The translations under genes and the position numbers were made by a program. 43,069 nucleotides of DNA from Chloroflexota bacterium (GTDB taxonomy: Bacteria; Chloroflexota; Dehalococcoidia; Lucifugimonadales; Lucifugimonadaceae), in assembly GCA_002714425.1 (NCBI GenBank), contig PAXI01000012.1, positions 39,116 through 82,184 on the forward strand, read 5' to 3'. Each line of letters begins with the position of its first letter. Within the stretch, counting starts at the first letter, position 1. The notes under the pieces were generated by a model. It was not told where the DNA came from. It did not search any database and saw only the letters and a list, made by a program, of their open reading frames with translations. Shown here in pieces: positions 977 through 18,262 of this stretch.

Positions 977-1660
977 ATGGATCAAAACAATGATTTAAAT
1001 GTTGCACGTCAAGGATTCGAGGCAAGTCTAAACAAACTACAATCGGATATTTTGCTTCTAGGTGACTTAGTAATTCAAGCCATCAATAAATCTATACATT
1101 CTCTAAAGACAAGAAACATCGAAAAATCTCAAGAAGTTATAAAAGATGATGATAAAATCGATGATTTAGAAACAGAAATACAAGTTTTATGCGTAGAACT
1201 AATAAGAAAAGAAGCTCCACTTGCCTCAGATCTCAGAAGAATAGTGTCTGCGCTACAAATAGTAGATGAACTTGAAAGAATTGGTGATTATGCTGAAGGT
1301 ATAGCAAAGATAAGTGTAACTATGGGAAAATTAGTCCCGATAAATGAATTAGTACTTATACCAAAAATGGCAGAAAGTTCAGTAAATATGCTATCTAAGT
1401 CTTTAGAATCTTACACGCTAAGAGATTTCTCAATCTGCAGTAGTATACTTGAAGAACTAAGATCTAAGGATAAAGAAATTAATGCTATGCATAAACAGGT
1501 TCAAAGTGAATTGTTAAACACCATTAAGTCTGACTCATCCAAAGGAGGAGAGCAAGCTACATATTTGATGTGGGCTGCTCATAACCTTGAAAGAATAGCA
1601 GATCGTTCAAAAAATATTGCTGAGAGATCGCTTTTTCAGGTAACTGGAGAAATAAGTTAA
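977..1660 (+). CDS. phoU: Phosphate signalling regulator PhoU
   Basis: PhoU links the Pst transporter to the phosphate-sensing two-component system and represses phosphate uptake when phosphate is plentiful. The protein (227 residues) consists of two helical PhoU repeats, each with the acidic/basic signature typical of metal-binding PhoU bundles: about residues 75-105 (RKEAPLASDLRRIVSALQIV then ELERIGDYAEGIAK) and about 175-215 (NLERIADRSKNIAE). A TTG at 971 would also open the frame, but AGG at 968-970 is then directly adjacent; ATG 977 has that AGG six bases upstream and is preferred. It directly follows pstB. Its TAA stop shares TTAA (1657-1660) with the stop of the convergent gene. Confidence 0.93.
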   Translation: MDQNNDLNVARQGFEASLNKLQSDILLLGDLVIQAINKSIHSLKTRNIEKSQEVIKDDDKIDDLETEIQVLCVELIRKEAPLASDLRRIVSALQIVDELERIGDYAEGIAKISVTMGKLVPINELVLIPKMAESSVNMLSKSLESYTLRDFSICSSILEELRSKDKEINAMHKQVQSELLNTIKSDSSKGGEQATYLMWAAHNLERIADRSKNIAERSLFQVTGEIS

Positions 1661-2022
1661 GCGTTTATTGGCGGGAATGGTTTTCTCGGTTTGATAATTA
1701 CTTTCGCAATATTTTTAGTATCAATCAATTTATAATTCGTATTTTTCTTATTTAAACCTGTATCAATAATTCTACGAACTGTTCTAGTACTGAGATTAAA
1801 CATATTAGAAATTTCTCTAATTGAAAATCCTTCATTTATTTTTAAATTAATTCTTTTATTTCTATCAATAATTTTATTTTTTTTATCATCATATTTACAT
1901 TGCGAAAATTTACAATTAAGACATGATGGAGAAATATCACAACCATCATCAACATAATTATGATTATCTGGAAGAGCATGCAAACGGCTAACAGGATAAT
2001 ATTTTTGTTTTTTTAATAACAT
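1657..2022 (-). CDS. Cys-cluster helix-turn-helix protein under LexA control
   Basis: A 121-residue basic protein of unknown role. Near the N terminus four cysteines (about 28, 34, 37, 42; pattern C-x6-C-x2-C-x4-C) follow a DDG and probably bind zinc or another metal. After a charged linker comes a helix-turn-helix (about 66-87: FSIREISNMFNLSTRTVRRII), like sigma-70 region 4 or resolvase-type HTHs. I recall similar DDGC...C..C....CxYD proteins from Chloroflexota and phages, without an assigned function. The frame can open at TTG 2031, but a TATAAT at 2036-2031 (minus strand) places the transcription start next to ATG 2022, so that ATG is chosen. A perfect LexA box overlaps the promoter, so the gene is predicted to be induced by DNA damage. 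It converges on phoU. Confidence 0.72.
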   Translation of the reverse strand: MLLKKQKYYPVSRLHALPDNHNYVDDGCDISPSCLNCKFSQCKYDDKKNKIIDRNKRINLKINEGFSIREISNMFNLSTRTVRRIIDTGLNKKNTNYKLIDTKNIAKVIIKPRKPFPPINA

Positions 2023-2030
2023 ATAAAACA

Positions 2031-2060
2031 ATTATAGAACAGATGTTCTAAACATTTCAA
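2031..2060 (-). promoter_or_regulatory. Promoter of the Cys-cluster HTH gene
   Basis: On the minus strand, TTGAAA (2060-2055) and TATAAT (2036-2031) are separated by 18 bases. This is a near-consensus sigma-70 promoter. Transcription should start at about 2024, within two or so bases of ATG 2022, leaving no room for a ribosome binding site. Confidence 0.7.
2035..2050. promoter_or_regulatory. LexA operator (SOS box)
   Basis: TAGAACAGATGTTCTA matches GAAC-N4-GTTC, the LexA box known from Gram-positive bacteria, with six-base perfect arms. It covers the spacer and first bases of the -10 box of the minus-strand promoter, so bound LexA would block that promoter. It is also about 115 bases upstream of the divergent alcohol dehydrogenase, too far to be an obvious operator for it. 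The same arm sequence recurs in front of lexA at 17591. Confidence 0.8.
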
Positions 2061-17590: not shown

Positions 17591-17606
17591 TAGAACATTT
17601 GTGCTA
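17591..17606. promoter_or_regulatory. LexA operator of lexA
   Basis: TAGAACATTTGTGCTA is one base off the perfect GAAC-N4-GTTC box (GTGC in the right half) and shares its TAGAAC arm with the 2035 box. It overlaps the extended -10 TGCTATGAT (17602-17610), so LexA should repress its own gene. Transcription would begin near 17617, upstream of AAAGGA and ATG 17633. Confidence 0.75.
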
Positions 17607-17632: not shown

Positions 17633-18262
17633 ATGAAATCTATTTCAGAGCGACAAAAAATAATATTAGAATTTATTCAAGACTTCATAGAAGTCAATGA
17701 CTATCCACCAACTATTAGAGATATTCAAGCTGGTTGCAATATCAGTTCTACATCAGTGGTATCTTATAACTTAGATAAATTAAAAGAAACTGGTTATTTA
17801 GATAGAAATTCTGAGGTATCTAGAGGTCTCAAACTAACAAAAAATAATAGTGATTTTAGCGTCCCGTTATTAGGAACTATTGCTGCAGGATCTCCATTCC
17901 CATTACCAGATAATGATACTTGGTCTGATGTGAATGGGCAAGAGATAATTGAAATACCTCATTCTATGATTAATTCTCCAGATGGTGTTTATGCATTGAA
18001 AGTTAAGGGAGAATCTATGATTGATGCTTTTATTTCAGATGGAGACCTAGTTATCATGGAGCAAACCAGCAATGTCAGAAATGGTCAAATGGCAGCTGTT
18101 AGAATTATATCTGATGATTCTACAACACTTAAACATGTATATTCTGATGGAGAATATACAAAACTTGAACCTGCAAACAAACAGATGAAAGCAATGACAT
18201 TTGAATCTAATAATATTCAAATACTAAGTAAAGTAATTGGCGTTTGGAGATACTTAGGATAG
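17633..18262 (+). CDS. lexA: SOS transcriptional repressor LexA
   Basis: Represses DNA-damage genes and cleaves itself when RecA is activated. In 209 residues: winged-helix DNA-binding domain (about 1-68, SERQKIILEFI, then TIRDIQ and SSTSVVSYNLDKL), cleavage site Ala85-Gly86 in GTIAAGSPF, catalytic Ser128 (GESMID) and Lys167 (TTLKHV). The frame extends back to ATG 17606, but that codon lies inside the operator and -10 box; ATG 17633 has AAAGGA nine bases upstream and gives the canonical MKSISERQ start. Autoregulation is predicted from the overlapping box. Confidence 0.95.
   Translation: MKSISERQKIILEFIQDFIEVNDYPPTIRDIQAGCNISSTSVVSYNLDKLKETGYLDRNSEVSRGLKLTKNNSDFSVPLLGTIAAGSPFPLPDNDTWSDVNGQEIIEIPHSMINSPDGVYALKVKGESMIDAFISDGDLVIMEQTSNVRNGQMAAVRIISDDSTTLKHVYSDGEYTKLEPANKQMKAMTFESNNIQILSKVIGVWRYLG

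Follow-up and report, generated by a model that had tools for sequence, protein, structure and literature searches.

LexA normally represses its target genes by blocking their promoters, and RecA-stimulated cleavage of LexA induces them. SOS control of phage genes is a known phenomenon, and so are gene transfer agents, in which phage head genes reside in host chromosomes, often at separate loci, and depend on a host-controlled DNA-binding activator (RcGTA GafA, PMC6363796; CcGTA, PMC9632790, PMC11150451). In Gram-positive bacteria, the LexA motif is GAAC-N4-GTTC (PMC3323433). The locus described here shares with this regulon the palindrome and its overlap with a promoter, and lexA and recA of the same genome carry related boxes, but the target is a phage-derived gene and not a repair gene, and the box has longer flanks, TAGAAC/GTTCTA, and often occurs as tandem copies 19 bp apart. 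The dispersed phage head genes found in the class to which the genome belongs and the likely DNA-binding product of the locus are reminiscent of gene transfer agents, from which the system differs in that LexA boxes stand directly on the operons and the modules of the class are known from genes alone.

The gene lies in the window, the 43,069-nucleotide stretch of Chloroflexota DNA that was analysed, within an AT-rich genome of ~1.4 Mb (1.395 Mb). Its open reading frame runs on the minus strand from an ATG at 2022–2020 to a stop codon that ends at 1657 (1657–2022), tail to tail with phoU, and encodes a protein of 121 residues with four conserved cysteines and a helix-turn-helix (HTH), hereafter the Cys4-HTH protein. 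The open-reading-frame program lists a TTG at 2031 as the start, but it is the ATG that the members of the genus conserve. Upstream on the same strand, a -35 element TTGAAA (2060–2055), an 18-bp spacer, a -10 element TATAAT (2036–2031) and eight bases precede the ATG. The LexA box TAGAACATCTGTTCTA at 2035–2050 is a perfect palindrome reading TAGAAC-ATCT-GTTCTA and shares two bases with the -10 element. The preliminary description had pointed out this overlap of box and promoter at 2031–2060 as well as the ATG eight bases past the -10 box, and we confirmed both. The near-leaderless start is conserved in the genus: in three genomes the ATG follows the -10 element after 8, 8 and about 10 bases, and no Shine-Dalgarno sequence was seen. 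Because transcription normally begins about 7 bases beyond the -10 element, the mRNA is probably leaderless or nearly so.

This promoter has the only copy in the genome of the extended palindrome TAGAAC-N4-GTTCTA, of which about 0.16 copies are expected. The bare motif GAAC-N4-GTTC was found at 12 sites, compared with about 12 expected from base composition and 15 for the backwards pattern, and was rejected as evidence for LexA because it occurs at chance level. Sites with one mismatch to the extended palindrome lie at recA, at lexA, on contig C15 and at a permease gene, the last of which, on contig C14, was discarded because it falls inside the gene. Exact copies of TAGAACATNTGTNCTATNAT occur at only two places in the genome, the Cys4-HTH gene and lexA. 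The presumed repressor gene lexA (17633–18262, plus strand; PF01726 and PF00717 matches) lies in the same window and is the only LexA gene found in the genome, and it is preceded by a LexA box with one mismatch, TAGAACATTTGTGCTA, at 17591–17606 on the plus strand. The near-copies of the box read TAGAACATTTGTGCTATGAT in the lexA promoter and TAGAACAAATGTGCTAATAT at recA. When the lexA loci of relatives were located by tblastn, a similar site, often GAACAT-N2-GTGC, preceded the gene in at least 19 of 30. Taken together with the conservation described below, LexA control of the Cys4-HTH gene is very probable from sequence. At position 25035 of contig C15, a near-perfect LexA box, TCGAACATTTGTTCTA, is accompanied by a second box, GCACAAATGTTCTG, about 30 bp away; they are followed by no normal gene, only by a 23-codon open reading frame, MKKNKLVYLYTRINGVEKIKFYA, and an inverted repeat with a T run, and the site could direct an SOS-induced small peptide or RNA.

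Orthologues of the Cys4-HTH gene were detected in 68 of 100 relatives, with strong matches throughout the class; several of the relatives in which the gene was not detected are incomplete assemblies. Elsewhere in the phylum only generic HTH matches with E values above 1e-7 were obtained, and the INPHARED phages yielded none to the protein. The two genus mates that hold the gene keep the box, the -35 and -10 elements and the short leader, with protein identities of only 74% and 55%. Conservation of the box before orthologues, one of the checks set by the preliminary description, was borne out. A perfect box precedes the gene or its operon in all 28 of the family loci read first, and lies at most 3 kb upstream in 67 of 88 loci across the class, compared with at most 5 of 88 for any of 12 control palindromes made of permuted half-sites; the other 21 lack a perfect box over this distance, some because of contig ends. 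Complete genomes of the class, of 1.4–2.1 Mb, also have members of the family of Cys4-HTH genes, but no perfect box was seen close to those that were read. In the remaining genera of the family, boxes usually come as tandem pairs, most commonly 19 bp apart, located directly before the Cys4-HTH gene or before a preceding gene that we call X, and in GC-rich orthologues the box is found upstream of the preceding gene rather than directly before the Cys4-HTH gene. The gene adjoins phoU-pstB and/or cinA in 32 of 34 family loci, and its dN/dS values against the two genus mates are 0.28 and 0.42. This fixed position and these ratios indicate that selection has retained the gene through vertical descent. 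Its sequence changes faster than those of the neighbouring genes (74% identity against 92% for PhoU), and the purifying selection acting on it is weaker than that on phoU. Genus g11 (G031, G044; L080, L081) carries extra, diverged Cys-HTH copies elsewhere, with no perfect LexA box nearby.

The preliminary description recognized a 121-residue protein with an HTH of the DNA-binding type, which the sequence bears out, but gave the cysteine cluster as C-x6-C-x2-C-x4-C, which is off by one. The true spacing is C28-x5-C34-x2-C37-x4-C42 (codons at 1897–1941, minus strand), and a pattern search with the C-x6-C spacing returned zero matches. All four cysteines are invariant across 30 aligned members, and together with the motif DDGC...CLxCPL they form the most conserved part of the protein. 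The invariance of these residues suggests a metal or Fe-S site. The HTH, which resembles sigma-70 region 4 in weak matches, spans residues 63–92 (codons at 1747–1836, minus strand); the residues S78, R80, T81 and R84 in its recognition helix are invariant in the same alignment, and the structure prediction is confident over about residues 51–80 (pLDDT >90). Pfam matches of the protein were weak and generic, the best scoring below the gathering cut-off, and the PDB contained common HTH folds but no solved structure covering the whole protein. Weak matches to phrog_836, annotated as a late transcriptional activator, were obtained from 29 of 30 members (best E 6.7e-6), and weak matches to phrog_532 and to Pfam Mor from 10 of 30 members each, all over the HTH part alone; the terminase small subunit family was matched by 2 of 30 members at E 0.005. 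HTH matches of this kind do not discriminate between transcription factors and proteins of packaging or recombination. A PADLOC match to mad1 in 16 members was dropped as a link to defence because it spans the HTH alone. The confident HTH, together with the weak matches to region 4 and to phage activator families, points to DNA binding. Phage late transcriptional activators are alike in the HTH, but the Cys4 part of the protein is not present in them. WhiB-like proteins are likewise small, have four conserved cysteines and may work beside sigma region 4. Their cysteine spacing differs, however, the HTH is on the same chain here, and no WhiB family was among the Pfam hits listed.

Alternatively, the small protein could be an SOS effector of another kind, its Cys4 part acting on RNA polymerase, DNA replication or the cell cycle and its HTH serving only to dock. 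The four cysteines and DDGC...CLxCPL are conserved beyond what would be expected of a mere scaffold, region-4-like folds serve also as protein-docking modules, and the tail of the protein is fast-evolving. We regard such an effector role as unlikely, since our searches gave no homologue with a role of this kind and the invariant residues of the recognition helix fit DNA binding.

The genomic context of more distant orthologues bears on the origin of the gene. Other families of the order and class, like viral contigs, have the Cys-HTH gene between an intact gene for the terminase large subunit and a portal gene (phrog_64, E 6e-30). At L065–L067 the intact terminase is preceded by genes for a 3-helix membrane protein, a 110-aa protein and a 72-aa single-helix membrane protein, and the three genes starting such modules had no match of known function in PHROGs. 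Where a LexA box was found in an intact module, it precedes the whole operon or the terminase. Four viral contigs show the order terminase-CysHTH-portal, whole or partial, and three of them continue with scaffold-like and capsid genes. Compared with the tailed-phage head module terminase-portal-scaffold-capsid, these contigs (L092, L096, L098) hold the same Cys-HTH gene between terminase and portal, whereas in the genome of the window terminase, portal and capsid were not found and the Cys-HTH gene alone remains. On these neighbourhoods, the Cys4-HTH gene descends from a phage packaging module. The preliminary description overlooked this descent, the LexA control of a terminase operon in relatives and the gene loss that left the gene on its own, while its placing of the target outside the usual SOS repair genes was borne out, and its LexA box, HTH and near-leaderless start stand. 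In a terminase tree, each of five multi-member families forms a clade, with low support in the case of f89, a pattern that mainly vertical descent within families would produce; three phage sequences are nested among the families, so some exchange with phages is possible. In viral contig L092 a LexA box stands immediately before the Cys-HTH gene (around 645), in L112 the gene begins one base after an unrelated terminase (around 8000), and L113 has two Cys-HTH copies (around 8000 and 13200).

Within the family the module appears to be reduced stepwise. In other genera of the family the Cys-HTH gene is preceded by gene X, of 200–280 aa, which aligned with the intact terminases of the class over 184 columns (hhalign probability 99.5%, E 1.3e-22) and whose predicted structure (pTM 0.77) matched HK97 and other large terminases. 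X has neither the Walker A motif (RQ[AG]GKNE) nor Walker B (LLEVDEAQ) and has no nuclease half; it is the decayed remnant of a terminase large subunit. In four genera including that of the window, X is absent beside the gene, and nothing but the Cys-HTH gene with its LexA box or boxes is left. A profile search for X in 11 genomes without an adjoining X, including that of the window, found none; the run had no positive control and by itself is weak evidence. No portal was found in the genomes of the family, including that of the window, except for one weak fragment, and no capsid gene was found in the three family genomes searched, again including that of the window.

This series also bears on the idea that the protein is a packaging accessory, that is, a TerS-like DNA-recognition or assembly partner of terminase and portal for which the reduced lineages kept another DNA-binding use. 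The position of the gene between terminase and portal, its place directly after an unrelated terminase in L112 and the two matches to the small subunit family all fit this idea. It is nevertheless improbable, given that a better small-subunit candidate exists in the distinct 110-aa gene that precedes the terminase, that the Cys-HTH gene has no terminase as a neighbour in viral contigs L101 and L113, and that it persists where both terminase and portal are gone. A decaying prophage relic with a surviving but unimportant LexA site would agree with the decay of the terminase, the loss of portal and, in the three genomes searched for it, of capsid, and the failure to detect the gene in some relatives, a number of which have incomplete assemblies, but is very unlikely in view of dN/dS well below 1, the invariant cysteines and HTH residues, the fixed genomic position and the box and promoter kept both in diverged genus mates and at all 28 of the family loci read first.

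The combined reading that we favour, with a probability of about 0.6, is that the gene encodes an SOS-induced DNA-binding regulator of phage origin, and a secondary regulator is the most likely role of the Cys4-HTH protein. The elements read directly from sequence are the box, the promoter, the lexA gene, the conservation in orthologues, the phage synteny, the terminase decay and the purifying selection; LexA binding, damage induction, the metal, the DNA target and the sign of regulation are what we infer from them. In the ancestor, a small Cys4-HTH protein would have been encoded between the terminase large subunit and the portal, in a packaging operon of tailed-phage or gene-transfer-agent-like type that was under LexA boxes across the class. 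The family would then have lost the portal, and its terminase would have decayed and later been lost in several genera, while the Cys4-HTH gene would have persisted together with its LexA box. At present, LexA bound to the box between the -35 and -10 elements would block the promoter, and upon DNA damage its cleavage would release a leaderless or near-leaderless mRNA for the 121-residue protein. The region-4-like HTH of the protein would contact DNA, and the Cys4 part would hold a metal or an Fe-S cluster. As a secondary regulator of transcription, the protein may formerly have acted on late genes of the phage or particle and may now act on host genes during the SOS response. The retention of the LexA switch throughout the family suggests that a viral late gene is used in the bacterial damage response.

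The capsid genes raise a wider point. Of 20 genomes searched, 12 have a capsid gene of the viral-contig type, often on a contig other than that of the terminase, and three of the capsid loci read, in other families at separate chromosomal places (L206, L207, L211), have LexA boxes 0.5–0.6 kb upstream. Tentatively, much of the class may harbour a gene-transfer-agent-like system with LexA-repressed terminase-portal and separate capsid operons and the Cys4-HTH protein as its dedicated regulator, of which the family lost the particle and recruited the regulator as an SOS transcription factor; this extension is considerably less certain than the regulator role itself. No report of a terminase-CysHTH-portal module was found in literature searches that were thin on subscription journals. 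Two things appear to be new: a LexA-controlled packaging operon that shrank step by step to a single DNA-binding gene, and the presence of LexA boxes at separate head operons across a class of Chloroflexi. Living genomes still show the series from a complete LexA-controlled packaging operon through a dead terminase to a lone SOS-controlled gene, which opens to testing the idea that the host SOS network captured a late gene from a phage. For a little-studied phylum, the gene extends the SOS regulon by a conserved target outside DNA repair, and it hints that the class may possess a gene-transfer-agent-like system induced by damage. In family f19 (L121, L126, L132–L135, L148), a nearly full-length terminase-like gene has neither Walker A nor Walker B, and LexA boxes stand just upstream of most copies, apparently a second loss of the ATPase motifs with SOS control kept.
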